Part shown: piece after piece, positions 1 through 61,804 of the stretch
Layout of the letters: each line of letters starts with the position of its first letter
Numbering within the stretch: the first letter of the stretch is position 1
Source of the DNA: Escherichia coli
Lineage (GTDB): Bacteria; Pseudomonadota; Gammaproteobacteria; Enterobacterales; Enterobacteriaceae
Length of the DNA: 64,000 bases
Assembly: GCF_011881725.1 (NCBI RefSeq)
Contig: NZ_JAATUR010000007.1
Coordinates: 1-64,000, forward strand
Reading direction: 5' to 3'
Program-made: the position numbers and the translations under genes
Notes under the pieces: generated by a model
Database searches by the model: none
What the model saw: only the letters and a program-made list of their open reading frames with translations
Told to the model about the DNA's origin: nothing

Positions 1-1
1 C

Positions 2-178
2 GATATAAAACCAAAATTAATGGCATTAAAAAAAGAAAGCTTATTAAGCACCAATTTCATGAAAAATCGAAGTGAGATTAGAGGTGAAGTCTTTGGTGAT
101 GTTGGTAGTATTGAGGCTGATTTGAGGGAAATCAGCACACTGATTCATCGGCGGAAGGCATTATTTATTTCCTTTTAA
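2..178 (+). CDS. 3' end of an unidentified gene, cut by the window edge
   Basis: A reading frame is open from the first bases and ends at a TAA, giving 58 codons of a C-terminus. The peptide is rich in charged residues and has a stretch resembling a helix (GSIEADLREISTLIHRR). I do not recognise the family. It lies inside the integrated element, so it is probably cargo. The start and most of the protein are outside the window. Confidence 0.5.
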   Translation, partial: DIKPKLMALKKESLLSTNFMKNRSEIRGEVFGDVGSIEADLREISTLIHRRKALFISF

Positions 179-684
179 CTTTAAAACGATAAAAACAAAT
201 GAGAGACTGAATAAATATCAGCCTCTCACATAGTTAATAAGTTTCAACTTTAATATCTGAGAAATCATTCTATCTGGGCCTTGTGGACATTAATCCTCCT
301 GGCAACATACGACTCAAAGTTTCAGCCTTGTATAGCCATCATAAATAGTACAGGATTGGGTGCTGCTCGCATGTGTCATTCTGGTATTAATACTGATCAT
401 CAGGGGTAACTTGTATGTAATTTAAAAACCATCATATCTCAAATCTCACAATGCTCATATTTTAACCATAAAAACTAACCGATTTACACCCGCCACACAC
501 CGTCATAACTTATTGTATTTAAATAGCTACAAGCCTCTAACCCACTAATTACACCATTAAATTTAAGCCATATCCTTACGCAGATTCAAGCTTGCCCCTG
601 CTGCCATTCACGTTTTAGGATTACCTCGCTAACACGACATGCTACTTTTTAAATCAGTGTAATAATTCAAACGAGGATAAAATT
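179..684. other. AT-rich intergenic stretch, no gene seen
   Basis: About 500 bases without a convincing reading frame. An imperfect inverted repeat at 200-228 (TGAGAGACTGA / TCAGCCTCTCA) could be a hairpin. Its T-rich flank lies on the minus strand, so it does not clearly terminate the gene on its left. A GAGG ribosome binding site at the right end serves the next gene. Confidence 0.5.
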
Positions 685-1815
685 ATGTTCGAGAAAATGA
701 AAAACAATGTAACCCGTATACCGGGGAATTTAACCAAACTTAATCAATACCAAAAAGACATTGATCACCTGTCTAAACTATTTTCTGAACAGCAATTACT
801 GGAACTAATGACGACTACCGAATCCGATCAAATATTGCAAATGAAGCCTGCTGTAGATATTCTTCATGTACTATCTCCATCAGCATCTACTGCTAAGCAT
901 ATCAATTTTTTTCAGCACGTCCCAGTGCTCGAACAATGGTTAAAAAAGGAGTGCACTGCCTTTAATTTACTGGCAGTACATTTCTATTCACAGCAATCCC
1001 GTAAAAATGTAATTCCGAAAGAAATCTGTATGCTACTGGATGCATTTATTAAAACTGAACTTTCATCTGCGGTTAATGGTAATAATAATGCCGAACTCCT
1101 TTCTTGTTTTCAAAACACGCTGGATAAAATGTGCAATACACTAACATTTATAGACCACACAGTTACGGAACAATCAGGTCAAGTAGCAATGCTTGATTTC
1201 AGCGCAAAAATGCATGAATATACTGTTGAAATCAGGACCTTTTTGAAGTCTGAATACTGGCTAAACAAACTACCTAAGGATATTAACATTCCATCCATTG
1301 ACCTATCCTGGCTTGTGTTTTGTTACTTTTGCTCTGAATATCTTTTTGTATTTATTCAAACAACGCTCAATACAATGAAGGCAGGAAAAATCATTCGTGA
1401 TAACTACCTTTATCATCCTAAAATGATTGCATTGATCATTTTATCTATGCTGCCTTATGAAGTCATTCATAACGATGGATCACTGAGTGAGTTTAAAACG
1501 CCTTTAACCAGCCCTGATGAGTTCATAATCAAATCTATTTGCATTAAAGGTAAGCAAAACACTACAGGGCATAAAAAAGATATAGAACAATTGCTTCGTA
1601 AGACATATATCTATATTGCATTACTCTTAAACCCTGAGTGGGCACCATCTTCCAAGGAGTTGATTTCCTTTTTATCAGGAAAGTCCACAGTGATAAGTGG
1701 TTCACTCAACTTCCAGTCAACCTCCAGTGGTCTGGGTGTTCAAACAAACAATATCACTCTTCTTAAGAATGAGGTTTACTTCGAAAAAATAGCGAACAAG
1801 ATCATGAAACTGTAG
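685..1815 (+). CDS. Hypothetical protein, 376 aa, element cargo
   Basis: I do not recognise this protein. It has no obvious signal peptide. A hydrophobic stretch lies around residues 210-230 (WLVFCYFCSEYLFVFI), which could be a membrane segment or the core of a helical domain. The rest looks mostly helical and rich in Lys, Asn and Ser. A GAGG ribosome binding site stands a few bases before the ATG. The AT-rich composition differs from the chromosomal genes right of 14 kb and suggests transfer. It sits next to the recombinase gene of the element, in the same direction but with its own start signal. Function unknown. Confidence 0.7.
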   Translation: MFEKMKNNVTRIPGNLTKLNQYQKDIDHLSKLFSEQQLLELMTTTESDQILQMKPAVDILHVLSPSASTAKHINFFQHVPVLEQWLKKECTAFNLLAVHFYSQQSRKNVIPKEICMLLDAFIKTELSSAVNGNNNAELLSCFQNTLDKMCNTLTFIDHTVTEQSGQVAMLDFSAKMHEYTVEIRTFLKSEYWLNKLPKDINIPSIDLSWLVFCYFCSEYLFVFIQTTLNTMKAGKIIRDNYLYHPKMIALIILSMLPYEVIHNDGSLSEFKTPLTSPDEFIIKSICIKGKQNTTGHKKDIEQLLRKTYIYIALLLNPEWAPSSKELISFLSGKSTVISGSLNFQSTSSGLGVQTNNITLLKNEVYFEKIANKIMKL

Positions 1816-1958
1816 TTTCTTAATATAATGGCGACATGGAATTGTGTTGCCATTATATCCGAATCTGCGTTTTTTCACCTGATGAACTGTGAAAGCTGTA
1901 ACTGGCAGACTATAACCTCACATCGTATTTTTCCAGTGTCATTTACAGGAGAAATACG

Positions 1959-3086
1959 ATGCCTATTCTGGATCTGCGTTTCAGCAACAAATCACTTCAC
2001 CAACTTCCACATCCCCTCACGGGTTGTCAGGAATACCGTGATATTCACTGCCAAAACCTGCGTGCTCTGGTGTATCCCAATCGGATCACGCTGGCCTTTC
2101 GTGCCACTATAAACAATCAGCGTATATATGAAACCCTGGGTCAGTTCCCTCAGCTCTGCGTTGAGGATGCCCGTCAGCATGTGATGAAACTGCTTGCTGA
2201 TAAAAATCGTCTTGCGGTTCAGTCCCGTCGATTCACTGTGGAACAGGCCATCAATGACCTGTGGCTACCGGATTTGCAGTTGTATAAAAAGAGTCCTCAG
2301 TCAGAGTTGTCAAAACTCAACCTCTACGTTCGCCCGTTCTGGGGCAAGCGGCAACTTCGCGACATCACGGCAGGAGAACTGGAACAATATGCTGCTGGCT
2401 TACGGGAAAAATTACGTCCGTCAACAGTAAACCGTATCCTCGCAATATTGTCCAAAATATGCTCTCTGGCAGTACGTGCTGGATGGATCACGCATTCCCC
2501 GATGACACATGTCCGCTATCTGAAAGAAAATAACATTCGCTATCGCACACTGTCAGCGACAGAAATCCCGCGCTTTATTAACGCGGCAACAGCGCTGCAA
2601 ACACCGGCAGCTGATTCTATATTGCTTGCTCTTTATACGGGGATGCGTATTGGTGAGGTATGTACCCTGAAATGGGAGTACTGGCACCCGGATATGCATC
2701 AACTCATACTGCCTGATACAAAGTCCGGACACCCTTTCACCTGCCCACTTGCACCTCCAGCCATTGCAGTTGTCCAGTGCCAGCAGGACCTGATGCTCAG
2801 CAAAACTTACATTTTTCCGCGACTAACCGACAATGCCCGCCCTCTGGCATATCCGCGTGCAACCTTTGCCCGTATTTGTCGGGATGCCAACATTGATAAC
2901 CTGCGGATGCATGACCTGCGCCGTACCTTTGCCACCCGGGTACTACAGGCGACCGGGGATATTGCAATCGCTTCCCATCTGCTAAATCACCATTCACTCA
3001 CGGCGACCCGTCGCTACGCTTTTCACAATGCAGCGACATCACACGCAGTGGTTTCTCAGGTCATAGAAAGTTATGACACAAAATGA
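1959..3086 (+). CDS. Tyrosine recombinase (XerC/phage integrase type)
   Basis: A 375-aa site-specific recombinase that should cut and rejoin DNA through a covalent tyrosine intermediate. The C-terminal catalytic domain shows Arg230 (LYTGMR), Lys255 (DTKSG), His318 and Arg321 (MHDLRR), a His at 344-345 and the nucleophile Tyr353 (TRRYA). The core-binding domain covers roughly residues 90-180. An AGGAGA site precedes the chosen ATG by about six bases. It differs strongly from the second recombinase at the leuZ edge. Pipolins of E. coli are known to carry XerC-like recombinases near the polymerase, so this may act in excision, integration or resolution of a circular form. Which recombinase does which job cannot be told from sequence. 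Confidence 0.9.
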   Translation: MPILDLRFSNKSLHQLPHPLTGCQEYRDIHCQNLRALVYPNRITLAFRATINNQRIYETLGQFPQLCVEDARQHVMKLLADKNRLAVQSRRFTVEQAINDLWLPDLQLYKKSPQSELSKLNLYVRPFWGKRQLRDITAGELEQYAAGLREKLRPSTVNRILAILSKICSLAVRAGWITHSPMTHVRYLKENNIRYRTLSATEIPRFINAATALQTPAADSILLALYTGMRIGEVCTLKWEYWHPDMHQLILPDTKSGHPFTCPLAPPAIAVVQCQQDLMLSKTYIFPRLTDNARPLAYPRATFARICRDANIDNLRMHDLRRTFATRVLQATGDIAIASHLLNHHSLTATRRYAFHNAATSHAVVSQVIESYDTK

Positions 3087-3153
3087 ACCTATGATCTGTG
3101 ATTCGTGATTGATGCAACACTCGTTTAAGGACGGTATTGTCATTGCATGCTTC

Positions 3154-3167
3154 TGCAGGGCCCTGCA
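3154..3167. promoter_or_regulatory. Perfect 14-bp palindrome, possible operator
   Basis: TGCAGGGCCCTGCA is a perfect palindrome in the 150-base gap between the recombinase and the excisionase-like gene. It could be a binding site for the excisionase-like protein encoded just downstream or for another regulator. This is inference; no T-run follows, so a terminator is unlikely. Confidence 0.35.
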
Positions 3168-3236
3168 TTAAGTCATCACAGAATGTGGATTGATATTAAA
3201 TCCGCGTGGCTTCTTATTCTCTGAAACCGGAGGTTT

Positions 3237-3437
3237 ATGTATTTAACCATTAAGCAGTTCGCAGAAAGATTTAATCTTTCTGCATCCACGGTTGCGTCAG
3301 ATATATCGCGCAACCCCGGAAAACTCCCGCCCTTCATCAGAATTGGGCGGGCTATACGATTCTCTCTTGATGATATTGTTGAGTGGGAAAATGCACATCG
3401 TCAAAACAAACTTAAAGGTGATATAAATGGTTACTAA
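3237..3437 (+). CDS. AlpA/excisionase-like DNA-binding protein
   Basis: A 66-aa protein made almost entirely of a winged helix-turn-helix of the AlpA/MerR-like excisionase type: LTIKQFAERFNLSASTVASDI, then a basic wing (FIRIGRAIRFSLDDIVEWE). Such small proteins bend DNA and set recombination direction, or activate integrase genes. The start is preceded by GGAGG. Its 3' end overlaps the next gene by about ten bases, so the two are probably translated together, and piPolB follows directly. In known pipolins an excisionase-like gene accompanies the polymerase and recombinase. Confidence 0.8.
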   Translation: MYLTIKQFAERFNLSASTVASDISRNPGKLPPFIRIGRAIRFSLDDIVEWENAHRQNKLKGDINGY

Positions 3438-4065
3438 GAACACAGCAAATAATGCTAATAATGCACTGAACATTCTTCCTGAAGCAGCAAACACAGCTGT
3501 AGACAACGATGAAAAATATCTGTCCTTTGCATTAGTTCTCGCTATCACGATTATGGACAACTTAGTAAAGCTCATCGGCACAGATGGCTTCGTACTTTAT
3601 ACCTACACCCTGCAGGACACGGCTACTGCTCGTGCTGTTTTTAATGAATTAGCCAGGCGTCTCAAAAATTTCAATCGTCAGGAGGAGGTCTACACCACCG
3701 ATTCCCTCACCTTTCGAATGAAATACATTTACGGTGTTACCCTGTTCGAACATGATAGTAAATCTATCCTTAACCTCTTTGATAAGAAGGGTTATCCGGT
3801 ATTGAGTGAATCAGGAGAACCCGGTTCTCTTGATGATATGTATCTTGACATTCAAGCCCGATTACATGGCGGCTACGCCTCAAAAAAGTTTCTTCATTTA
3901 CATGAACATTGTCTGTTATCTGCACACGTTACCCCGTCTGTGGAAAAGACGCAACGCGGTATCCTGATTAAAGTAGGCAGGAAACTCGTTTCCTTTATCC
4001 ATGTAGATGATGAATCACACAAAACCGATATTTTCAAATCTGTAGTAAATGTTATTAAATCTTGA
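3427..4065 (+). CDS. Hypothetical protein, 212 aa, upstream of the polymerase
   Basis: Not recognised. It starts inside the end of the excisionase-like gene and ends 46 bases before the polymerase start, so excisionase, this gene and the polymerase look like one operon. No signal peptide or membrane span is evident, although residues 28-42 are fairly hydrophobic. The C-terminal part (QRGILIKVGRKL) resembles a segment of the small protein encoded at 6761-7087 (HGILVNMGKRL), so the two proteins flanking the polymerase may be distant relatives. A role as a replication partner is possible but not shown. Confidence 0.75.
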   Translation: MVTKNTANNANNALNILPEAANTAVDNDEKYLSFALVLAITIMDNLVKLIGTDGFVLYTYTLQDTATARAVFNELARRLKNFNRQEEVYTTDSLTFRMKYIYGVTLFEHDSKSILNLFDKKGYPVLSESGEPGSLDDMYLDIQARLHGGYASKKFLHLHEHCLLSAHVTPSVEKTQRGILIKVGRKLVSFIHVDDESHKTDIFKSVVNVIKS

Positions 4066-4111
4066 TTCTTTATGCCGGGACACAGCTCCCGACATTTTTT
4101 CGGAGTTAACT

Positions 4112-6712
4112 ATGAGCAATAATTTGCAGGACATCCTCGCTGCCGCCTCGGGGTATCAGTCCGTGACTTCAGAGCCAGCGCTCAATCGTAAAAGACCTAA
4201 AACGCTTGATGATTATCCTGTGATACCACCTGCATCAAAAAAAGTATCTGTTATTTCAAGTGACCTGACACTCCATATCGGTTTTGATACCGAATATGTT
4301 TTCAACCCTGAAACACGACAGAATGATATTCTGTCATATCAGAGTTATGTTGTCTTACCCGATAATACAGGTATATCGAACATTATCTATCCACCTGACT
4401 CACAGAAAAAATCCCGGCTGTCTTTTAAGGAATTTCTCTGTCAAACGATTACACCGCTTCTTGAAACGGGTGTGATTACAAAATGGCCCGGTATTATTAA
4501 TATATATGCGCATTTCATTCGTGCGGATATCGCCTCCTTTGCCAATTTCTGGTCAGACTACAAAATTCTTTTGAAAGGAATACGCGGTACTGTCAGCAGC
4601 TTCAAAAATCGTTACGGTATCGATTTTGATGAACAGCAGGAACGTCGCGTAAAGACTGAACAGATAATGTTTGACAAACGAACTTCCCCTCCGCGTTGCA
4701 GTAACGTAGCTTTCATCGATACACTGCTTATCACTCCCGGGGGTATGGGTCTGGCTGAATGTGGTGAATTACTGGGTCTTCCCAAACTCACCATTCCTGC
4801 ACCTTATTCCATAACCAATATGCGTGAATATCTTCTGGGCGACAGAGCAGGGTTTGAAGCCTATGCTCTGCGGGATGCCGAGATTGCGGTTCGTTATGCT
4901 TTACAGGTTCGCAATTTTTGCGCCCGGGAGCTGATGATTGATCGTGTCCCCGCCACCATCGGGGCGATGGCAGTTTCACGGTTCACCAAAACACTTAAAG
5001 AAAACAATATGTCTCCTGAAGTCTGCCTTGGGACACACATTAAAACCCGTGAACTCTGGCTCACGGAGAAACAGGCATTCCGGACGATTAAAAACCCCGC
5101 CAGTGTTCCTTCAAGAGAGTTGTTTGAAACGTTCCCGATCAACTGTTACCACGGCGGACGCAATGAGTGTTTTATGATGGGGGTTACACCGTCTGATCAC
5201 TGGTATGACTACGATCTGGCTGGAGCGTATACCACCGGGCTATTAGATATCCTCACACCCGATTACGGGAACATCCGCCTCAGTAAAAATCCGGACGATT
5301 ACTGTGGGCATGTAATGGGATTTGCGCTTGTCACATTTCGGTTCCCGGAATCAGTTCCCTATCCCAGCCTGCCGGTTCGGACCGATCAATATGGGTTATT
5401 CTTTCCATTAAGTGGCGAATCATGGGCAACGGCACCTGAAATCGAACTTGCTCTGTCGCTCGGGGCAGAGATGACGATCCATAATGGGATCATCGTCCCC
5501 TGGATCTGTGACACCTCCCCACATAACAGCGAATCAACATCGGTGTTTCTTCCCTTTGTTCAACAGGTCCGTGAGAACCGTAATCGCCATATTAAAGGTT
5601 CTCTGGAGGAGAAATTCTGGAAAGAAATTGGCAACTCGCTTTATGGTAAACTTGCTCAGGGCCTTCGCGCCAAAACCGCCTTTGATACAGCCCGTGGATT
5701 AAACAGATCCCTCCCACCATCATCGGTTACTCAGCCATTCTTTGCTGCGCATGTGACGGGATTTATCCGGGCCGTTGTCGGGGAACTCATGAATGCTTTG
5801 CCTTCTGATTCATCGGTTGTCAGCGTCACAACCGATGGCTTTTTGACAAATTGCCCACTTGACAAGATAAACATGAGCGGTCCACTGTCTTCCCGCTTCC
5901 AGTCGCTGTGCGATATTGTTGATCCGGGTTCATCAATGTTGACATGTAAGCATGAGGTCAGCCAGCTTATCGCCATGAAAACCCGGGGGCAGTTAACCTA
6001 TAGAGCTATTCAGGGAAAACCGGTTGTTCATGCCAGGGCTGGCGTCAAACCTCCTGCCGATATTCCACGCAGTGACTATAACGACTATATGGTAGATCTT
6101 TACCTTAATCGTTTACCCGGTCAGACGTTATCCCGAAGTACGTTGATATCAACGCGTGAGATGTGGCTCTCGGAAAGCGATCTGGTATCCCGGGAACAGG
6201 ATATCCGTCTTAATCTGGAATTCGATTTCAAACGCCAGCCCGTACGGCCCGCCATGAATGAAGGGCATCTACTGATGTTTTCCCGCCCGTGGGATAATAT
6301 GGAAGAGGCTCTGCAGCAGCGCTCTCTTTTCGACGACTGGCGGCAAACGCATACACTGAAGACCCTGGCTGACTGGGATGACTGGTGTGATTTTCTCTAT
6401 TGCCGGACGGTGTTTTCTGATATGAAACTAAAAGTCGGAAGCAAACGTAGTGATGATATTTTAGTCAGACTATTTCTCCGGGCGCTGACTCAGTGCCAAT
6501 GGGGGCTGATGCTGAAAGATAAAAAAAGTTATTCCTGTAAAGAGGTTGCTGAATGGCTGACGTCAGAAGGCTATTCAGTAACGGTGACTGATGTAAAAAA
6601 TGCGGTAAGAGCAAAAATACCCCAAATGAAATTTAGTTCTGTAACACCGCGAATGAAGTCACTGATGGATATCATAGCCCGTAAATATCCGACATTCTGT
6701 CTTCCAGTCTGA
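4112..6712 (+). CDS. Primer-independent family-B DNA polymerase (piPolB), pipolin hallmark
   Basis: An 866-aa family-B DNA polymerase. The N-terminal proofreading exonuclease has ExoI Asp59/Glu61 (GFDTEY), ExoII near Asp139 (YAHFIRAD) and ExoIII Tyr251/Asp255 (YALRDAE). The polymerase domain has motif A Asp366/Asp368 (WYDYDLAGAY), motif B Lys504 to Gly512 (KEIGNSLYG), motif C Asp575 (TTDG) and a KTRG motif at 623-626. KTRG is the signature I associate with piPolB, in place of the lysine motif of protein-primed polymerases. Characterised piPolBs start DNA synthesis without a primer, and a role in element replication or damage tolerance has been proposed. The ATG at 4112 has a GGAG site six bases upstream. 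An in-frame ATG at 4049 overlaps the previous gene and is unlikely. All catalytic residues seem intact. Confidence 0.95.
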   Translation: MSNNLQDILAAASGYQSVTSEPALNRKRPKTLDDYPVIPPASKKVSVISSDLTLHIGFDTEYVFNPETRQNDILSYQSYVVLPDNTGISNIIYPPDSQKKSRLSFKEFLCQTITPLLETGVITKWPGIINIYAHFIRADIASFANFWSDYKILLKGIRGTVSSFKNRYGIDFDEQQERRVKTEQIMFDKRTSPPRCSNVAFIDTLLITPGGMGLAECGELLGLPKLTIPAPYSITNMREYLLGDRAGFEAYALRDAEIAVRYALQVRNFCARELMIDRVPATIGAMAVSRFTKTLKENNMSPEVCLGTHIKTRELWLTEKQAFRTIKNPASVPSRELFETFPINCYHGGRNECFMMGVTPSDHWYDYDLAGAYTTGLLDILTPDYGNIRLSKNPDDYCGHVMGFALVTFRFPESVPYPSLPVRTDQYGLFFPLSGESWATAPEIELALSLGAEMTIHNGIIVPWICDTSPHNSESTSVFLPFVQQVRENRNRHIKGSLEEKFWKEIGNSLYGKLAQGLRAKTAFDTARGLNRSLPPSSVTQPFFAAHVTGFIRAVVGELMNALPSDSSVVSVTTDGFLTNCPLDKINMSGPLSSRFQSLCDIVDPGSSMLTCKHEVSQLIAMKTRGQLTYRAIQGKPVVHARAGVKPPADIPRSDYNDYMVDLYLNRLPGQTLSRSTLISTREMWLSESDLVSREQDIRLNLEFDFKRQPVRPAMNEGHLLMFSRPWDNMEEALQQRSLFDDWRQTHTLKTLADWDDWCDFLYCRTVFSDMKLKVGSKRSDDILVRLFLRALTQCQWGLMLKDKKSYSCKEVAEWLTSEGYSVTVTDVKNAVRAKIPQMKFSSVTPRMKSLMDIIARKYPTFCLPV

Positions 6713-6726
6713 TAACCGTTAAATCT

Positions 6727-6755
6727 CCCCCAACTCCTTTAACAGAAGTTGGGGG
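6727..6755. terminator. Hairpin between convergent genes, probable terminator
   Basis: A nine-base perfect stem (CCCCCAACT / AGTTGGGGG) lies 15 bases after the polymerase stop and just before the end of the convergent small gene. T-runs are weak on both sides, so this is a moderate-quality bidirectional terminator. Confidence 0.6.
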
Positions 6756-6760
6756 CTTAA

Positions 6761-7087
6761 TCACAGGCAATCGGCATCAAAACAGTGAAATAACTGCCGC
6801 GCGTCAGGATGGCCATTTACATGATAGATCCGCATGGCATGACAGGTGATACTCTGGAGATTAGCCGCCAGCCTTTTCCCCATATTCACCAGTATGCCGT
6901 GTGGTATTTTACTGCTTGTACTGTTTACTGTCAGAGTAAAACAATTTGTTTCAACGCTGACCTCAATAAAATCATTTCCAAATAATGTACCGACAACCTG
7001 CCTGATTGTTTCTTCATAATCTGTCAGATCAATGACATCACGCCATCTCGCATTTACGAGTTGATACTTTCTGATATGTAAATACAT
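6761..7087 (-). CDS. Hypothetical protein, 108 aa, convergent with the polymerase
   Basis: Not recognised. The start has a good AAGGTGG ribosome binding site. Its middle (HGILVNMGKRL) resembles the C-terminal segment of the 212-aa protein upstream of the polymerase, with a similar pattern of alternating hydrophobic residues before it. I read no DNA-binding motif with confidence. It is transcribed away from the WYL regulator, so the gap to its right is a divergent promoter region. Confidence 0.6.
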   Translation of the reverse strand: MYLHIRKYQLVNARWRDVIDLTDYEETIRQVVGTLFGNDFIEVSVETNCFTLTVNSTSSKIPHGILVNMGKRLAANLQSITCHAMRIYHVNGHPDARQLFHCFDADCL

Positions 7088-7466
7088 AGAACCACCTTTA
7101 TGTTATTTCAACTAATATGATGTTCTCCGACATTATGAAAATATTAATCATCATTGTAATTGCTGATAACCTCTCTAACCTTCGGATCTTACGTTCCCCC
7201 CTGCCTCTCCGACTTGATGGCAAAAGTGCATGGCCAAATATGCAGCAAAAACATGTCATGTACAGGTCAGGATGATAATTATCACCCTGAACGTAAAAAT
7301 ACACATGGACAGGATGAGTCCACATGTTATTCGATGATTCCAGCAATGTTTTAATATATTGATAATTAATGAGTTAATTTTTTTCTCCGTCACAGTAAAA
7401 GTGGACTCATCCTGTCCGTTACTTTGCTGAAAATATCCTCTTCGCTGGCATTAATCGGATAAACGA
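7088..7466. promoter_or_regulatory. Divergent control region with repeated operator-like sites
   Basis: The gap between the divergent 108-aa gene and the WYL regulator holds three related sites. At 7267-7290 is a near-perfect palindrome centred on TGATAATTATCA with TCAGG/CCTGA arms. At 7307-7323 is GGACAGGATGAGTCCAC. At 7401-7417 is its exact reverse complement. All share the core CAGGATGA. The 17-base pair of sites could form a hairpin or, more likely, be a repeated operator for the WYL protein. No gene is convincing inside this stretch. Confidence 0.6.
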
Positions 7467-8369
7467 ATGGGTAAGCACGATAAACTTGGATATCGACTCG
7501 GATTGATATTAACTCGCCTGAACAATGGTGAGTCACTAGCCGTCCGGGAGTTATCTGAGGAATTTAACGTTTGCGAAAAAACTATCCGTCGTGATCTTAC
7601 TCAGCGCCTGTCCTATCTTAATCTGATTCGACAAAATGGTCGCTATCGCCTGTCTGACGGTGTTCTCGGTCAACGCAGCAATGCTGATTTACGTCATTTC
7701 ACGCGCATCCTGGGTATTGAAGGGCTGTTCCCTCGCTGGGATGACAGACTACTGAGTATTTTGTTAGGTAACACGAAAAACAACCCGTTTCTGATAAAAC
7801 AACGTCCATACGAAAACTGCGGATCATTCATGTCAATTCTGAATGTATTATCCGATGCCATCCTGTCACAGAAGAAAGTAAATTTTAATTACAAAGATAA
7901 AGAGTTTCGGGCTGTTGAGCCATACAGACTGGTTAATGACAACGGATTGTGGTATCTCGCTGCCGCCCATGACAGTACATTAAAAAGCTTTGTTATCTCA
8001 TCTGTCAAAGACGTTTGCATGAGTAATATCTCTTTCAGGATAATCCCCGAAATTAATGAAAAAATAGAAAAGACAGATGGTATCTGGTATAGCGAAGACC
8101 TTATCGAAGCTCTTATTTCAGTTTCCGCACATGTTGCTCCGTGGTTTACCCACCGTCATCTATTGCCAGGACAGGAAATAATTCATACTTCCCGGTCTGG
8201 CGATTTACTGGTGATATCACGTGTAACACACACAGATCAGATAATGCCTTTAATGAAATACTGGATACCGGATGTCGAAGTAATACAACCGGCCTCAATC
8301 CGTCAACAACTTGCTGAAGATATACAATCCGCACTGAAACGTTACACCCAGCCAAGTAACGCCCCGTAA
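7467..8369 (+). CDS. WYL-domain transcriptional regulator
   Basis: A 300-aa regulator with an N-terminal DeoR-like helix-turn-helix at about residues 24-45 ([19 protein letters not shown]) and a WYL domain around 135-185 with LWYLAAA at 161-167. The C-terminal 100 residues resemble the extension seen in WYL dimers. WYL proteins sense ligands, some of them nucleic acids or nucleotides, and often repress defence loci (the BrxR/CapW type) or prophage genes. Repeated CAGGATGA-core sites lie directly upstream, which fits autoregulation. It is followed after about 60 bases by a hydrolase gene in the same direction, a plausible regulator-effector pair. The ligand and targets are unknown. Confidence 0.85.
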
Positions 8370-8430
8370 TGACACGGATAATATAATTTTCATTGAGTGC
8401 TATTTTTGTAAGCTAAAAAATGGAGTTACC

Positions 8431-9249
8431 ATGAAAAAATGCCCGGTTCTTCTTGTTGTATCAGGGTTTCTGACCGAAAATGATATATCATGGTTTAACC
8501 GAATTAAAGCAGGGTGTGGCCTTGATGTCAGATACTATAAATGGGAATCGGCAAATCTACTATCCATATTAAGTTCTGACATAGCGAACAAGTGGGGGTT
8601 ATATACTCTCTTCCCCCTGAGAACATCTCCTTTATTGTCATCAATCTCCATTCCATTTAAAGCGCGTCAGGCCTGGTATAATGCAACGAAAGCAGCAGTT
8701 AATAACAGAGAAAAATTAGCACACGTAATAAACGAGATATACGTTAAAGAAAAGCGTAATGTGATCATAATGGGTCATTCTTTAGGGACTCGATTAATAA
8801 ACAATACATTACCCTATATTAAAAATGATAATATTCTCTTAACAATCTCTATGGCCGGAGCCACCCCAATAACAAGTTATACAGAGAACATAATGAAAAT
8901 GGCTTACGGTTCAAAAATGGGGCATTTAAATATCTACAGTGAACATGATAAAGTACTTAACACGATATACCCTCTCGTAGAGTCAGTAACGCCAATTGGG
9001 GTTCGGGAGGTGAGATTCAGACCTGCTCGGATAATCAACTGGAAGTGGAATATTGGTCACACTGAATATATTACTTCAAACAGGATTGATTCATTAACAC
9101 ACTGGTTAAATGTTACCTGTGCCGATTTAGCTGATCCAGCCCTAGAAATCACTGACGACGACATGAAATCATTTCATGATATTATTAATCTTGCAAATTC
9201 AACACATCATAAAAACACTGTCGCACCTAAATTAATATCATTTGAGTAG
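8431..9249 (+). CDS. Putative alpha/beta-hydrolase (DUF726-like serine hydrolase)
   Basis: A 272-aa protein with the serine-hydrolase nucleophile elbow GHSLG at 115-119 (Ser117), a likely acid Asp173 (YSEHDKVL) and a likely His210 (NIGHTEY), so a complete triad in the right order. The N-terminus (PVLLVVSGFLTEND) fits the first strand of the fold and the oxyanion region. No signal peptide, so probably cytoplasmic. The fold and the GHSLG setting recall DUF726-type lipases or esterases, though I cannot name a substrate. A GGAG site precedes the start. The gene follows the WYL regulator and ends at a strong terminator, so the two form one unit. An anti-phage effector acting on membrane lipid is a speculation. 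Confidence 0.75.
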   Translation: MKKCPVLLVVSGFLTENDISWFNRIKAGCGLDVRYYKWESANLLSILSSDIANKWGLYTLFPLRTSPLLSSISIPFKARQAWYNATKAAVNNREKLAHVINEIYVKEKRNVIIMGHSLGTRLINNTLPYIKNDNILLTISMAGATPITSYTENIMKMAYGSKMGHLNIYSEHDKVLNTIYPLVESVTPIGVREVRFRPARIINWKWNIGHTEYITSNRIDSLTHWLNVTCADLADPALEITDDDMKSFHDIINLANSTHHKNTVAPKLISFE

Positions 9250-9268
9250 TTAAAAAAGGTTGCATTAT

Positions 9269-9300
9269 AACGGGAGTATATATTTACTCCCGTTAATTTT
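9269..9300 (+). terminator. Rho-independent terminator after the hydrolase gene
   Basis: A ten-base perfect stem (AACGGGAGTA / TACTCCCGTT) followed by AATTTTCAT. It closes the WYL regulator-hydrolase unit. Confidence 0.75.
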
Positions 9301-9329
9301 CATATTTTATAGTATTGATATGGATTCGA

Positions 9330-9557
9330 TTAAAAATTTCGTCTAACTCGTTCCCTTATCAAACTTGCCAGCCTTACCCTTCCAGGTGAAATAGTTTCCG
9401 TTACAGTTTCAACTCTCAACAAATCACGCTGTCCGGTTCGGCGACTGACCGCGAAACGCTGACATATATCATTAACCGATACCGTATTACCGGTATACAG
9501 TTGAAGTAATATCCAGCACAGCCTTTCTGCTATCCTTTCACCGCGAGTTTTATACAT
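9330..9557 (-). CDS. Small DeoR-type helix-turn-helix protein or regulator fragment
   Basis: A 75-aa protein with a helix-turn-helix (VSVNDICQRFAVSRRTGQRDL) like the N-terminus of the WYL regulator 900 bases away, but with no WYL domain. A GAAGG sequence lies upstream of its ATG. It may be a stand-alone small regulator or the stump of a second WYL gene whose C-terminal part was lost. No downstream remnant of a WYL domain is visible, which slightly favours a genuine small protein. Confidence 0.55.
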   Translation of the reverse strand: MYKTRGERIAERLCWILLQLYTGNTVSVNDICQRFAVSRRTGQRDLLRVETVTETISPGRVRLASLIRERVRRNF

Positions 9558-9714
9558 CTGTAAAACCTTCAGTTATCGTCAACGATGACATAGCCCACCT
9601 CAAAACCCACATAACTAACTGTATTCATGAACATTTATTACCGGTGTAATACTGTCGTTGGGGTAATGGATTAACCGTTATCACCCTGCTACAGGAGAAT
9701 GCTCCATAGGGGGC

Positions 9715-9744
9715 AAAAACCACGAGGGATCTGAGATCCCCCGT
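9715..9744 (-). terminator. Terminator of the leftward unknown-gene operon
   Basis: Read on the minus strand, the stem GGGATC/GATCCC with CACG/CGTG flanks is followed by GGTTTTTG. It lies downstream of the 144-aa gene. The rest of the roughly 300-base gap at 9558-9858 shows no gene. Confidence 0.65.
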
Positions 9745-9858
9745 GTCTGCACTTGTTTATGCGAACAGCCAGGAAAAAGAGACATCATCTCCATGCTGTG
9801 ATGCACGCCACATGCAGTAGATTACAAAGCCGCCCGCTTTCTTCCTGTTCATAACGGG

Positions 9859-10293
9859 TCAACAACTTTCCACAGTTACCGTTACCCGGTAAATCCCCAT
9901 AGAGAGATACTCCATAAAATTACGCTCCCACAGGGACCAGAGTTCATTCCTCTCTGCTGCCAGTGAAATATCCCCAATCAGATAATGGAAGACATAATTC
10001 CCCGACCAGCAAAAATCAATTTCTTTTTCCAGCTCAGGGTAGACACGCCCCATATAACTAAATTCTGTGACATAATCAAAATACCATTCATTATTCTTAC
10101 GGACAAACCGTATTTCAACGGGATGAAAGCCCCCGGATTCTGCACTGTAGTCCGGATCACGGAAATTAATAACCACTGCCTCAGTTATTTTTTGTAAAAC
10201 CTGATTTGCCAGAAGAGTAGTAATATGCTGCTGAAATTCTTTAGTAACAGGCAGAGTTAATCCTGCCTGTTTTAAGGCATATTGGGTTTGCAT
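9859..10293 (-). CDS. DUF2787-like protein, 144 aa
   Basis: The segment FRDPDYSAESGGFHPVEIRF and the later aromatic-rich region (YVFHYLIGD) match what I remember of DUF2787, a small family of unknown function found on mobile elements and in marine and enteric gammaproteobacteria. No signal peptide or membrane segment. It is the last gene of a leftward group of three and is followed by a terminator. Function unknown; the link to DUF2787 is by motif memory only. Confidence 0.65.
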   Translation of the reverse strand: MQTQYALKQAGLTLPVTKEFQQHITTLLANQVLQKITEAVVINFRDPDYSAESGGFHPVEIRFVRKNNEWYFDYVTEFSYMGRVYPELEKEIDFCWSGNYVFHYLIGDISLAAERNELWSLWERNFMEYLSMGIYRVTVTVESC

Positions 10294-10365
10294 AATAAAT
10301 TTTCCTTTAGAAAGTAAATAGCGGTGTGTGGTGATTTCTGGTTGTATAATAGTGCAGGAAATAAA

Positions 10366-10899
10366 TTAATCCTCTGTAATCTTTTCCTGGCTACTGATCG
10401 TATTAAGTTTATTCAACCGCTCCCTCCAGTCCGGGTATAATACATGAGTAAATAACTTCTCTGGATGTGCCTCCAGCAGACATATATCCGGGGAGCGTAA
10501 AACAGCAGCCAGAAAACCTGCATTGTTGGCGCTTGCCCCTTTGAATAACGGCCTGAATACTCCGGATGAGAAGCCGGTAGCAGGTTGTGTTTCCAGAACG
10601 GTTGCAATCTTTGAAAGTGAGATCCAGTCCTTAGAGAACAACCCTCCACAGCCATTTGCCACCAGACGAAGATAAAGTTCATTGTCCACCTCTGATATCG
10701 CCAGTTGCCATGTCAGCATACCACTTGCCTTAGGACTGATTTTTTCTGCCTGGCCTGTTTCAATGAGCAACTGATAGTCTTTTACATCAGATAATGTTTG
10801 TTCATCTGCACTGAGATTTTCATGAATAACCTCTGCCTCATTTTTAATCTCCTTCGAAACTGACTCAACATTATTTTTAACTAATTTTGATTTACTCAT
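10366..10899 (-). CDS. Hypothetical protein, 177 aa
   Basis: Not recognised. The first 60 residues are charged and low in complexity (many Lys, Glu, Ser), probably disordered, followed by a compact domain with MLTWQLAISEVDNELYLRLVANGCGGLFSKD-like text of alternating polar and hydrophobic residues. It lies 25 bases after the 123-aa gene and 72 bases before the 144-aa gene, all leftward, so probably cotranscribed. Function unknown. Confidence 0.65.
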   Translation of the reverse strand: MSKSKLVKNNVESVSKEIKNEAEVIHENLSADEQTLSDVKDYQLLIETGQAEKISPKASGMLTWQLAISEVDNELYLRLVANGCGGLFSKDWISLSKIATVLETQPATGFSSGVFRPLFKGASANNAGFLAAVLRSPDICLLEAHPEKLFTHVLYPDWRERLNKLNTISSQEKITED

Positions 10900-10924
10900 T
10901 TTGCGTTCCTGGTTTTGCTTGTGT

Positions 10925-11296
10925 TTAATAGCGTGATTCGGCCATAGAAATTAATAAATCAATACCCTTCAGAGGGCAATCGGGGTGAAATAACAGATAA
11001 ATACCGTTCCCGTTATCTTCCGTAACAGAAAGCATCAGGTAATAGTCATCTGTCAGACGGACTACAAATTCTGGATTTGCAATTAACTGATGAATCACAT
11101 TTAATACCTGCGCTTTAATATCTTCAGGTACATCATCGGGCTCGACATATATTAATGTCACCCCGACTTCATCCCAGAAACTCATTGCAGAGTATTCATC
11201 TTCAAATGGGAGTACCAGCTCTGTTTTCAACAGACTCATTACTGACTCCGGAAGAGATAGTGATGGCAGACTTTGCCAGTTAGCGATAAACTTCAT
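10925..11296 (-). CDS. Hypothetical protein, 123 aa
   Basis: Not recognised. An acidic protein without signal peptide. Its C-terminal half (FVVRLTDDYYLMLSV, then GIYLLFHPDCPLKGIDLL) has the alternating strand-helix pattern of a small alpha/beta domain. It is the first gene of the leftward trio, just downstream of a terminator that separates it from the zinc-ribbon gene, so it may have its own promoter or depend on read-through. Function unknown. Confidence 0.65.
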   Translation of the reverse strand: MKFIANWQSLPSLSLPESVMSLLKTELVLPFEDEYSAMSFWDEVGVTLIYVEPDDVPEDIKAQVLNVIHQLIANPEFVVRLTDDYYLMLSVTEDNGNGIYLLFHPDCPLKGIDLLISMAESRY

Positions 11297-11313
11297 TAAT
11301 CAATCCTTATAAG

Positions 11314-11347
11314 TAAAAAACCCCGATACGTTTTAAGTATCGGGGTT
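11314..11347 (-). terminator. Rho-independent terminator after the zinc-ribbon gene
   Basis: Read on the minus strand, AACCCCGATAC, a short loop and GTATCGGGGTT are followed by TTTTT. Strong stem and T-run. Confidence 0.85.
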
Positions 11348-11390
11348 ACATAGACAGGCTCAAGAATCTGGAATTTCCTTCAGTGGTCAT

Positions 11391-11642
11391 CTATATTCTT
11401 TCATAATATCCACAATCCTTGCAGATCAGCACTGGCGCATTATTCCTTTCACGCTGTTCAAGGAATCTAAAGAGACGTTGTATCGCCCTGATGATTTCTT
11501 TAAGCAATTCTGGTAATTGCTCCGGGCTAATATAACCGGATGTCAATGTCAGAAACCGGTCATCGCGAGTCACCTTTGCTATATTTCCGGCAGTTTCTGT
11601 GACTGTATTCCGACAACCGCACTTAGGGCACTTTAACGGCAT
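11391..11642 (-). CDS. Small zinc-ribbon protein, 83 aa
   Basis: Two CxxC knuckles, CPKCGC near the N-terminus and CKDCGYY near the C-terminus, would bind one zinc ion. A helical middle (PELLKEIIRAIQRLFRFLEQR) separates them. The ATG at 11642 has GGAG seven bases upstream; an in-frame ATG two codons earlier lies too close to this site. It sits next to the integrase gene with both leftward. Zinc ribbons of this kind occur on many mobile elements; no specific function can be assigned. Confidence 0.7.
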   Translation of the reverse strand: MPLKCPKCGCRNTVTETAGNIAKVTRDDRFLTLTSGYISPEQLPELLKEIIRAIQRLFRFLEQRERNNAPVLICKDCGYYERI

Positions 11643-11673
11643 AATCATTCTCCACGTTTAAGAGATGCAAAAA

Positions 11674-12876
11674 TCACTGTTCTTTACTGGTAGCTACGGG
11701 GGGTAAAAGAAGGTCGGTAACACCCTGCCCGGTCTGACGCATTCGCTCTGGTGTCAGTTTTGCGTAGCGCTCCGTACTCTGAATACTGGCATGCGCAAGC
11801 TGGGCTTTAACGTCATACAGACTGTACTGTCCGCTGGAGACAAGTAATGATGCGACGGAATGGCGCGTAGTGTGGAAACAGACTTCACTTTTATCTATCC
11901 CGCACTCTGCCAGTATTTTTTCATAGGCCCACCGGGGTTCTGATATTGGTTTTCCATTATCTTTTACGGCAAACAGATAGGGGTTGCTGCCAGCCCGTGG
12001 GATCGAATCAATAATGGATAATGCAACATCACTGAGATACACAGTTCTGCTGCGACCATTCTTAGTATAAGGAATGAATAACGACCTGTTATCCCGATCA
12101 ATATGTTTGTGCATGACATTCAGCATTTCTGATTTGCGTGTACCGGTTAACAGCAGCATGGCTATCAGTCCCCCGGCTGCCTTATTGGGGTATCGTGCCG
12201 CAGCGTCGAGGATCCTTCTGATCTCATCGGCGTCAAAAAAGCGCGTCCGCTGATTATTCTCCTTCAGCAAAGGGATCTTATCGGCTTCATTCTTCTCTAA
12301 GACATCCTGTCGTAGCGCATAACGCCCCATAGTTTTCAGAATAGCCAGTGCCCTGTTACAGGTAGACGGTGCATACTGCTGGCCGTGAATACGACCCTCA
12401 AGCATGTCGAAAAGCACCTGCTGGATTTCCCGGGCCCTGAGATCGCAGTAACGTATCTTTCCCAGACGAGGTTCAATGTATTGCGTGAAACGCTGAACAT
12501 CCTTATCCCAGGACTTTTTATGGCGCTTGATGAACGGAACATAGGTCTGGTGAAAAAACTCACTAAGCGTTGGCATCGCACGATAATTATCGCGCTCTGC
12601 CTTGGGGTCATTTCCAAGTGCAATCGCCTCCTTATGACGGCGAGCTATCTGGCGAGCTGTCCCCACATCAATTTCAGGGAATCTGCCAATACTGATACTT
12701 TTTTTGGTACCGTGGAATGTGTAGCGCAGGAGGAAACGTTTGTTATCCGTTCGACCTGAGAGACATTTGAGGCCAATAACTTCGGTATCAGATACCTCTA
12801 GCTCTGTAGATCTGGTATCTGTGTTTGCCGGAAGGGCTTTGATGGATGAATTGGTGAATCGGAAGGATTTTTGCAT
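11674..12876 (-). CDS. Tyrosine recombinase/integrase at the tRNA-Leu edge
   Basis: A 400-aa integrase with catalytic Arg247 (LLTGTR), Lys272 (YTKNGR), His335 and Arg338 (HTTRHS), His362 (LAHAS) and nucleophile Tyr371 (STERYAK). The N-terminus has an arm-type DNA-binding region (KKSISIGRFPEIDVGTAR). The ATG at 12876 has GAGG six bases upstream; earlier in-frame ATGs lack such a site. It is the recombinase closest to the leuZ tRNA gene, the usual place for the integrase that uses that tRNA as attB. It is transcribed away from the junction, divergent from the UDG-like gene with about 80 bases between. Confidence 0.92.
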   Translation of the reverse strand: MQKSFRFTNSSIKALPANTDTRSTELEVSDTEVIGLKCLSGRTDNKRFLLRYTFHGTKKSISIGRFPEIDVGTARQIARRHKEAIALGNDPKAERDNYRAMPTLSEFFHQTYVPFIKRHKKSWDKDVQRFTQYIEPRLGKIRYCDLRAREIQQVLFDMLEGRIHGQQYAPSTCNRALAILKTMGRYALRQDVLEKNEADKIPLLKENNQRTRFFDADEIRRILDAAARYPNKAAGGLIAMLLLTGTRKSEMLNVMHKHIDRDNRSLFIPYTKNGRSRTVYLSDVALSIIDSIPRAGSNPYLFAVKDNGKPISEPRWAYEKILAECGIDKSEVCFHTTRHSVASLLVSSGQYSLYDVKAQLAHASIQSTERYAKLTPERMRQTGQGVTDLLLPPVATSKEQ

Positions 12877-12956
12877 ATTTATCCTCATGTATCTGATTGA
12901 TATCATGGAGATAATATATATCTGAAGGTGTTTTTATTACGGGGCAGGATTGAAGA

Positions 12957-13697
12957 ATGGAAAGGCTATTAGACGCGTACAAACGGATATTACAGGAAGT
13001 TGACGCCCAGTCATTTAACCTGAATGAAAATAAATACTCAGGCGTATTTTTACCCGTACCCTTTGAAGAATACTGGCACTCACCGGTAAAAATCATGCTG
13101 GTTGGACGTGAAACCGCTGGCTGGAATACGCTGAATGGTAAGAATACGATATCACGGGTGTTGGGACTTATACCTGACGTCACCATCGGGCAGGTGGTTG
13201 AAGAAGCTGTAGATCGTTACAGGAAACATCTTCCGGTACAAAATTATGGCACCGCCAACCTCAAATCACGTAGCCGCTTCACGCAATATCATTTCAGGCT
13301 GGCCCGGGAGCTTAATATTCTTCCCCAGGCAATCGTGTATGCCAATCTACTGGCGTGGGATTACGACGGACTGACCCCTCTCAATCGCCCTCAAAATGAA
13401 GTGCAGGAAGTCATATTAGCCTCGCTGAAGCTACTGGCGGTACAAATTAAACACCTTGAGCCTGATTTCATCATCTTTGCATCTGGAGCCCGGAGAACAG
13501 ACTACATCATAAAACAGGTGCTTACTGAGCTAAGCGGCTATGAGACTTCTTCAGTCATTCCGGGGAAGCTATGGGAGTTCAAAACAGGTAATGCAATCTG
13601 TTTCAGAATTGCCCATCCACGGGCTATGCGCGGACACCAGAAGTACAGAGATGAGGTGATTGCACGAATTAAGCAACTTTGTACTCAGGGTGGCTAG
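12957..13697 (+). CDS. Uracil-DNA glycosylase superfamily protein of pipolins
   Basis: A 246-aa protein with the layout of the UDG superfamily: motif 1 GRETAGW at 50-56 after a hydrophobic strand (VKIMLVG), a central strand (FIIFASGA) and the second motif with His220-Pro221 (RIAHPRAMRG). The canonical catalytic sequence of family 1 (GQDPYH) is absent, so activity on uracil is uncertain. UDG-like genes are a recurring component of E. coli pipolins, here at the element edge next to leuZ. It might remove uracil or protect element DNA during replication; this is inference. The start at 12957 follows a GGGGCAGG stretch. Confidence 0.8.
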   Translation: MERLLDAYKRILQEVDAQSFNLNENKYSGVFLPVPFEEYWHSPVKIMLVGRETAGWNTLNGKNTISRVLGLIPDVTIGQVVEEAVDRYRKHLPVQNYGTANLKSRSRFTQYHFRLARELNILPQAIVYANLLAWDYDGLTPLNRPQNEVQEVILASLKLLAVQIKHLEPDFIIFASGARRTDYIIKQVLTELSGYETSSVIPGKLWEFKTGNAICFRIAHPRAMRGHQKYRDEVIARIKQLCTQGG

Positions 13698-13872
13698 AGC
13701 ATTACAGCTTGCTCAGCAGGCCCCCCTTCCCGGAAGCGTACCGGAAAACAGGCAAAGCGGCCTGGTTCTCTATGCTGGAGGCGACACGTTCGATTCGTCA
13801 TTGCCAGGCTGGAGATTGCAGCTCATCGCACCCCGTGAGCACAGGATATGCACAGGACATGAATTTCAGGCA

Positions 13873-13897
13873 CAAAAAAACCACCCGGAGGTGGTTT
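13873..13897 (-). terminator. Terminator of the glyW-cysT-leuZ operon
   Basis: On the minus strand AAACCACC, loop TCCG, GGTGGTTTTTTTG, about 40 bases past the tRNA-Leu 3' end. It is a strong intrinsic terminator. The stretch 13698-13872 between the UDG-like gene and this hairpin holds nothing I can name and should contain the right flank of the element. Confidence 0.8.
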
Positions 13898-13938
13898 CAC
13901 GACACTGCTTATTGCTTTGATTATTCTGATGTTTCCCA

Positions 13939-13970
13939 TGGTACCCGGAGTGGGACTTGAACCCACACAG
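13939..13970. other. Probable attachment site (attR) in the 3' end of leuZ
   Basis: An element with an adjacent integrase abuts the 3' half of this tRNA gene, the classic attB for tyrosine integrases and the site where I remember E. coli pipolins being found. The matching direct repeat (attL) is not present in the window and should lie to the left of position 1. The exact core cannot be set from this side alone. Confidence 0.4.
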
Positions 13971-14025
13971 CGCGAACGCCGAGGGATTTTAAATCCCTTG
14001 TGTCTACCGATTCCACCATCCGGGC
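13939..14025 (-). tRNA. leuZ: tRNA-Leu (UAA)
   Basis: 87 bases with a long variable arm, anticodon UAA in the loop TTTAAAA, and encoded CCA. It is the last gene of the glyW-cysT-leuZ tRNA operon. The T-arm carries GTGGG/CCCAC, whereas the K-12 gene as I remember it has GCGGG/CCCGC. A paired change on the 3' side of the gene is what would be expected if the integrated element supplied its own 3' tRNA end. Confidence 0.95.
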
Positions 14026-60647: not shown

Positions 60648-60723
60648 TGGCTCCTCTGACTGGACTCGAACCAGTGACATACGGATTAACAGTCCGCCGT
60701 TCTACCGACTGAACTACAGAGGA
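60648..60723 (-). tRNA. asnT: tRNA-Asn (GUU)
   Basis: 76 bases, acceptor TCCTCTG/CAGAGGA, anticodon GUU (CTGTTAA) and encoded GCCA end. Four identical tRNA-Asn genes exist in K-12; asnT is assigned because mtfA and serU are adjacent. The tRNA-Asn genes are common integration sites of the high-pathogenicity island; no island abuts the 3' end here. Confidence 0.93.
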
Positions 60724-61714: not shown

Positions 61715-61804
61715 GGAGAGATGCCGGAGCGGCTGAACGGACCGGTCTCGAAAACCGGAGTAGGGGCAACTCTACCGGGGGTTCAAATCCCCCTCTCTCC
61801 GCCA
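61715..61804 (+). tRNA. serU: tRNA-Ser (CGA)
   Basis: 90 bases with a long variable arm, acceptor GGAGAGA/TCTCTCC, anticodon CGA (TCTCGAAA) and encoded GCCA. Only this serine tRNA has CGA, and it reads UCG; suppressor forms of serU read amber codons. Confidence 0.96.

Follow-up and report, generated by a model that had tools for sequence, protein, structure and literature searches.

A leuZ pipolin in a likely non-E. coli Escherichia, probably moved very recently to or from E. coli

The polymerase piPolB is said to have been defined in a paper of 2017, and the elements that carry it, pipolins, are reportedly treated as defence islands in one of 2024. A UDG gene is frequent, although not universal, among them. 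In the available part of PMC7385651, the pipolins of Escherichia coli combine piPolB, tyrosine recombinases, an excisionase-like neighbour, a UDG gene and att repeats at a Leu-tRNA site; the available sections of the pipolin papers of 2020 and 2022 infer that the elements move, and section 3 of PMC9710591 says of the att mechanism that it 'still needs to be confirmed in vivo'. The DNA analysed here, called the window, covers bases 1-64,000 of contig C88 in a draft assembly of 110 contigs and 4.31 Mb. Its positions 1-13994 hold the right ~14 kb of an element with this same set of parts, located at the tRNA-Leu(UAA) gene leuZ; the left end is absent because the contig begins at base 1. A preliminary description of this DNA had proposed a pipolin at leuZ, and all of the parts (piPolB, the recombinases, an excisionase-like helix-turn-helix (HTH) protein, a UDG-like protein, att and tRNA-Leu) were confirmed. 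We consider it very likely that this is a genuine pipolin, almost identical in sequence to known E. coli ones. With similar confidence, we place it at leuZ of an Escherichia that is likely not E. coli, the element having probably moved very recently to or from E. coli.

The polymerase open reading frame (ORF; 4049-6712, plus strand) encodes 887 aa from its first ATG; the 866-aa form, which starts at 4112, is the version annotated in E. coli LST200A. In a tree of 12 rows, for which the tool flagged long branches and one partial row, eight piPolB-type rows are set apart by a branch with support of 100/99: those of the window, Citrobacter, Buttiauxella and an Enterobacter metagenome-assembled genome (MAG), together with plasmid polymerases from Staphylococcus, Fusobacterium, Helicobacter and Pseudosulfitobacter. 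phi29, Cp-1 and PRD1 form their own group (97/94), and the window polymerase is also apart from Pol II. A protein-primed phage polymerase of the phi29 group, the alternative named in the preliminary description, is ruled out by these separate branches and by the 0 matches that tblastn gave in 50,697 phage records; 47 matches were obtained in 72,556 plasmid records. The exonuclease and polymerase blocks noticed earlier align with those of other piPolB-type proteins. KTRG is exact in six of the eight piPolB-type rows (KTRV in Fusobacterium, RTRL in Helicobacter), and TTDG is found in seven, with VTDG in one and DTDS in the other four rows of the alignment. Searches with the window polymerase returned no Pfam or NCBIfam match and no meaningful match to PDB sequences; two DNA polymerase PHROGs match weakly. 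Its membership of the family suggests that the window piPolB may synthesize DNA without a primer.

The element is E. coli-like while the host chromosome is not. Over 14,029 bases, the window and LST200A differ by 4 substitutions and 1 indel, 5 places in all; a sixth listed difference only marks where the alignment stops. In 500-bp steps, identity is 99.8-100% as far as 14.0 kb and then, to 24.0 kb, 86.8-94.8%, and the best E. coli match to 25-45 kb has 90.9% identity over 85%. Given these diverged flanks, the host is likely to be an Escherichia species other than E. coli, and the near-identity in the element, together with the abrupt drop in the flank, indicates that the pipolin probably moved very recently, likely between that species and E. 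coli. So few differences, within a chromosome diverged by ~8-9% from E. coli and in an element bounded by the tRNA on one side and att on the other, are strong natural evidence for recent site-specific transfer. The window piPolB gene is 99.9% identical (DNA) to that of E. coli 99-3165 and 2014EL-1346-6, both listed as pipolin carriers in section 9 of PMC7385651. It is matched in 292 of 5426 complete E. coli genomes, with at least 80% of the gene covered in 279, so the earlier wording that such elements are rare needs qualifying. Citrobacter, Intestinirhabdus and Franconibacter records also contain piPolB at 97-99% identity, and among 12 genomes of the host's genus piPolB is present in the host itself alone, in collections that may omit records very near the window. 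A 100% identical fragment comes from a MAG with the label Erysipelotrichia, where it lies on a contig of 3.9 kb that is probably mis-binned enterobacterial DNA.

The genome has three att copies, on C88 (attR), C76 (attM) and C71 (attL). Each att begins in the anticodon loop and takes in the 3' half of the tRNA, the whole 3'ETS and the terminator. K-12 (NC_000913.3) annotates 3'ETS-leuZ directly after leuZ, and this RNA is described in the available parts of PMC8166272 and PMC6191717 as a sponge for RyhB and RybB. A literature search that included a term search of pipolin papers, with many journals outside its coverage, found no link of pipolins or leuZ insertion to the sponge. In our proposed mechanism, a tyrosine recombinase, most likely the 410-aa one by attR, would act with the AlpA-like factor to recombine inside the anticodon-loop sequence. 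Once inserted, the element would provide the tRNA 3' half together with the complete sponge and its terminator; the half-tRNA and sponge native to the host would be displaced to the far end, attL. The excised circle would then be copied by piPolB, of a family reported to start DNA without a primer. The pipolin would by this route replace the sponge of its host, and any function of the element-borne copy is putative. The overlap of att and sponge raises the question of whether insertion alters iron and envelope regulation through RyhB and RybB.

The element-borne sponge resembles that of K-12 in its place after leuZ, its terminator and its RyhB-pairing stretch (the pairing being predicted); its differences are that the element brings in the tRNA-linked copy and that the linker of this copy is shorter by 2 nt. 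The stretch AATCAAAGCAATAAGCAGTGTCGTG is unchanged in 17 of 17 compared sites, and the att types differ in the T-stem by paired changes (GCGGG/CCCGC, GTGGG/CCCAC and ACGAG/CTCGT). The host RyhB equals that of K-12 across 94 aligned bases, and its predicted pairing, computed without shuffles, is -31.4 kcal/mol with the native copy at attL, -32.7 kcal/mol at attM and -29.2 kcal/mol at attR. In 63 pairing rows from Enterobacteriaceae, which are related and partly duplicated (the window and L053 hold one and the same site, as do L013 and L045), the 12-base core AAGCAGTGTCGT is present in 40 of 42 tRNA-linked and 17 of 21 displaced copies, and 3 of the 21 displaced rows have a weaker predicted pairing than any tRNA-linked row. 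Those three copies (L085, L086 and L083) belong to leuZ elements of other genera, where they lie at the end away from the tRNA, as if selection had been relaxed. Across 47 haplotypes, mean conservation is highest in the terminator (0.901), followed by the 25-base pairing block (0.874) and the linker (0.835); within the block, the 12-base 3' part reaches 0.91-1.00 and the 5' part falls into two classes. Special selection on the pairing bases was not borne out, the block being no more conserved than the terminator, and we do not claim it; pairing with RyhB is predicted to be kept in the element copies.

The leuZ site was matched in 117 of 119 genomes; on our reading of the list, 15 genomes including that of the host have an additional copy whose end is near the anticodon loop. 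piPolB is present in 2 of the 10 tested genomes that have a further att copy; other elements therefore use the same att. The sponge may lie in the att only because the integrase needs that DNA, with no role for the element and a neutral swap, and we regard this as rather probable: att must match for recombination, the native and element-borne copies are predicted to pair about equally well, elements without piPolB use the same site, and the pairing block does not stand out in conservation. The retention of the core in tRNA-linked rows and the weaker pairing of three displaced ones speak against neutrality, weakly given that the rows are related and duplicated. We advance only tentatively a fuller reading, in which pipolins and their leuZ neighbours use the sponge as their landing site and each insertion exchanges the 3'ETS-leuZ and half of the tRNA-Leu of the host for versions encoded by the element. 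The sponge tuning RyhB and RybB would then belong to the leuZ-adjacent element, and siblings without piPolB, equipped with only integrase, att and a defence system, would ride in the same array as satellites of the full pipolin.

The preliminary description had also expected an att repeat to the left. Matching repeats exist, on C76 and C71; the left end itself lies outside the window and not on the same contig, and the three copies would enclose the pipolin if the contigs are ordered as we suggest. C71 reads yecA, attL and then mzaABCDE (PADLOC names). C76 starts with an IS1-like end, followed by the last third of hhe, attM, a UDG gene, the 410-aa integrase gene and the 85-aa and 123-aa genes. 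The simplest order is likely to be yecA-attL-mza...-Int-UDG-attM-hhe fragment...-pipolin-attR-leuZ. The mzaABCDE set just inside attL (L018:55-9297) is complete, and MzaA has ankyrin repeats and sigma-70 regions according to PADLOC models. On C76 (L017:1-1895) the C-terminal third of hhe directly abuts the IS1-like end. As the remainder of hhe could not be found in the assembly, a deletion associated with the insertion sequence is suggested. Neither the restriction genes of LST200A nor the other cargo of E. coli OkiPb01701 was found in the assembly.

A second piPolB was not found by protein search of the assembly, by DNA queries from the window, LST200A, the Enterobacter MAG and OkiPb01701, or by tblastn on C76 and C71, the C71-C76 gap being unread. 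Two identical copies collapsed into one are unlikely, since C88 is unbroken in the part that it shares with C76, where the two contigs are 94% identical. The left neighbour is likely to be a derivative without piPolB that keeps integrase, att and mza. The right end of the element on C76 shows, per 250 bp, 93.7-99.6% identity to the Buttiauxella and Enterobacter MAG types. It is improbable, in our judgement, that there is a single pipolin, of which C76 is a displaced or rearranged piece and mza the left end. In its favour, mza forms the left end of a lone pipolin in OkiPb01701 and the three contigs are not joined; C76, however, holds a second integrase, UDG gene and att, flanked by an hhe left end, and the complete assemblies of E. 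coli 600055 and ET450 show such arrays. In 600055 the order is attR, a full pipolin (its piPolB 100% identical to that of the window), attM, a mini-element with a UDG remnant, integrase and mza, attL and yecA. E. coli ET450 has two pipolins side by side, both with piPolB annotated as frameshifted, and E. coli L2_E1649 has a single element without piPolB between two att copies.

An array with a piPolB-less neighbour, the arrangement that we favour, would arise if newcomers landed beside older elements, as their common terminal att would allow; the defence cassettes at the left end (mza, hhe) would then differ while the Int-UDG-att end stays near uniform. Such an array shows how one tRNA site can gather several defence cassettes. 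Intestinirhabdus alba (G421) has two piPolBs, 99% and 73% identical to that of the window, and three att copies. Another UDG gene there (L095:2877-3792; 71%, DNA) adjoins an att copy and DUF262 genes, which suggests another element. The Int-UDG end occurs in 533 of the 5426 E. coli genomes, at 559 places, and is at least 80% covered in 356; this set and the piPolB set were counted separately.

Homologous exchange is common within Escherichia and the flanks of leuZ are conserved, yet arrival of the element by homologous recombination of an E. coli chromosomal block is very improbable, as identity falls directly after the tRNA on one side and directly after att on the other (on C71 against 600055, 79.7-94.4% in the chromosome outside and 96.2-99.8% inside the element) with no E. 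coli-like flank carried along, a pattern that points to site-specific transfer. Several points weigh against our account of a recently transferred pipolin in an array. Both the left end and the C71-C76-C88 order are pieced together from a draft, and the contig ends share no 15-mer. Contamination of the draft is possible, though C88 runs unbroken from the element into diverged chromosome. The excised circle, the transfer and the enzyme activity are predictions from sequence. Some pipolin copies are decaying, as the frameshifted polymerases of ET450 indicate.

Both tyrosine recombinases match Phage_integrase. The excisionase-like HTH gene lies near one of them, that of 375 aa; its 66-aa product, described earlier as AlpA-like, matches HTH_17 but reaches 24.1 bits against a cut-off of 28.8 for the NCBIfam 'excise' model, and the ET450 copy is annotated 'AlpA family'. 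The 246-aa protein placed in the UDG superfamily has no Pfam, NCBIfam or PDB sequence match, and its assignment comes from the predicted fold. The model (pLDDT 90, from 51 sequences) best matches structures of family-4 UDG, UdgX and SMUG1, with E from 4.7e-6, and the TDG fold is also matched; TM scores are moderate, 0.38-0.62 among the matches listed. Its conserved blocks, such as GRETAGWNT, differ from the usual UDG motifs, and the UDG activity of this UDG-superfamily-like protein is therefore only putative. The gene is intact in the window and on C76; the copies of LST200A, ET450 and the 600055 mini-element carry annotations as broken genes. The 212-aa gene sits between the HTH gene and piPolB in 8 of 8 piPolB loci that have that stretch, and structure prediction gave no confident fold for its product. 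This protein is kept across pipolins yet evolves fast. A Helicobacter plasmid (L039:338-4274) has a small HTH gene and a 174-aa gene ahead of its piPolB-like gene, a layout as in the window; the 174-aa and 212-aa genes have no detectable similarity.

The mapped features are collected in Table 1. The 376-aa protein had no Pfam, PHROGs or PADLOC match and one NCBIfam match far below the cut-off. Near the right end of the window, tRNA-Asn (60648-60723) and tRNA-Ser (61715-61804) genes are possible further insertion sites.

Table 1. Features of the pipolin portion of the window and of the adjoining leuZ gene
Feature	Position	Strand	Basis or remark
Hypothetical gene of ~410 aa, 3' end only	1-179	+	Cut by contig start; aligns with end of 410-aa coding sequence in LST200A
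Hypothetical protein, 376 aa	685-1815	+	ORF; 36% in Buttiauxella-type pipolin
XerC-like tyrosine recombinase, 375 aa	1959-3086	+	Phage_integrase E 2.7e-21
AlpA/excisionase-like HTH protein, 66 aa	3237-3437	+	HTH_17 E 5.9e-9
212-aa protein between HTH gene and piPolB	3427-4065	+	Comparison of piPolB loci
piPolB, primer-independent-type family-B DNA polymerase, 866 aa	4112-6712	+	Tree, motif alignment, identical DNA in E. coli
Hypothetical protein, 108 aa	6761-7087	-	ORF; conserved among E. coli-type pipolins
HTH-WYL regulator, 300 aa	7467-8369	+	WYL, WCX, HTH_DeoR
DUF726 protein, likely alpha/beta hydrolase, 272 aa	8431-9249	+	DUF726 E 9.3e-7
HTH protein, 75 aa	9330-9557	-	HTH_11 E 2.3e-4, below cut-off
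DUF2787 protein, 144 aa	9859-10293	-	DUF2787 E 2.4e-39
Hypothetical protein, 177 aa	10366-10899	-	phrog_28971
Hypothetical protein, 123 aa	10925-11296	-	phrog_32947; partial copy on C76, 75% identical
Hypothetical protein, 85 aa	11391-11648	-	ORF; copy on C76, 91% identical
Tyrosine integrase adjoining attR, 410 aa	11674-12906	-	Phage_integrase E 4.4e-22 and Arm-DNA-bind_3; C76 copy 99% identical
UDG-superfamily-like protein (putative enzyme), 246 aa	12957-13697	+	Predicted fold; C76 copy 97% identical
attR, ~131-bp repeat common to C88, C76 and C71	13864-13994	.	Repeat comparison
Element-borne 3'ETS-leuZ sponge and terminator, 65 nt (K-12 counterpart 67 nt)	13874-13938	-	Predicted by alignment to annotated K-12 RNA
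tRNA-Leu(UAA), leuZ; 3' part 13939-13994 within att	13939-14025	-	ARAGORN, Rfam

Comparison with other pipolins separates the history of the integration end from that of the polymerase part. The core gene order is common to Citrobacter, Buttiauxella and the Enterobacter MAG. In the Buttiauxella and Enterobacter MAG pipolins (L010 and L012), the integrase is 99% and the UDG-like protein 94-97% identical to that of the window (94% for L010), whereas piPolB is 71% and the 212-aa protein 31% identical. At the DNA level, alignable 500-bp pieces of the window and L010 share 69-78% identity at 1.5-9 kb and 94.6-98.2% from 11.5 kb to the tRNA. The integration end is common to lineages whose polymerase part diverged long ago, and exchange within arrays would explain its uniformity. 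More distant relatives, the polymerases of Staphylococcus, Fusobacterium, Helicobacter and Pseudosulfitobacter, fall in the same branch as that of the window but are plasmid-borne and 22-31% identical.

A close counterpart is the pair of elements in E. coli 600055, which shares with our proposed array the order leuZ, full pipolin, att, integrase-mza element, att and yecA. The two differ at the left end of the full pipolin, which carries SIR2/nuclease genes in 600055 and a truncated hhe in the window genome, and in the type of attM. Relative to the E. coli pipolins described in the available part of PMC7385651, the host of the window element is likely not E. coli, and its neighbour is a second, apparently piPolB-less element, whereas the three-att cases there are ascribed to a prophage. 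Pipolins and their tRNA-Leu site are already known; what goes beyond the preliminary description is that the element has likely crossed between species, that it probably shares an array with a neighbour apparently lacking piPolB, and that its att holds the sponge.

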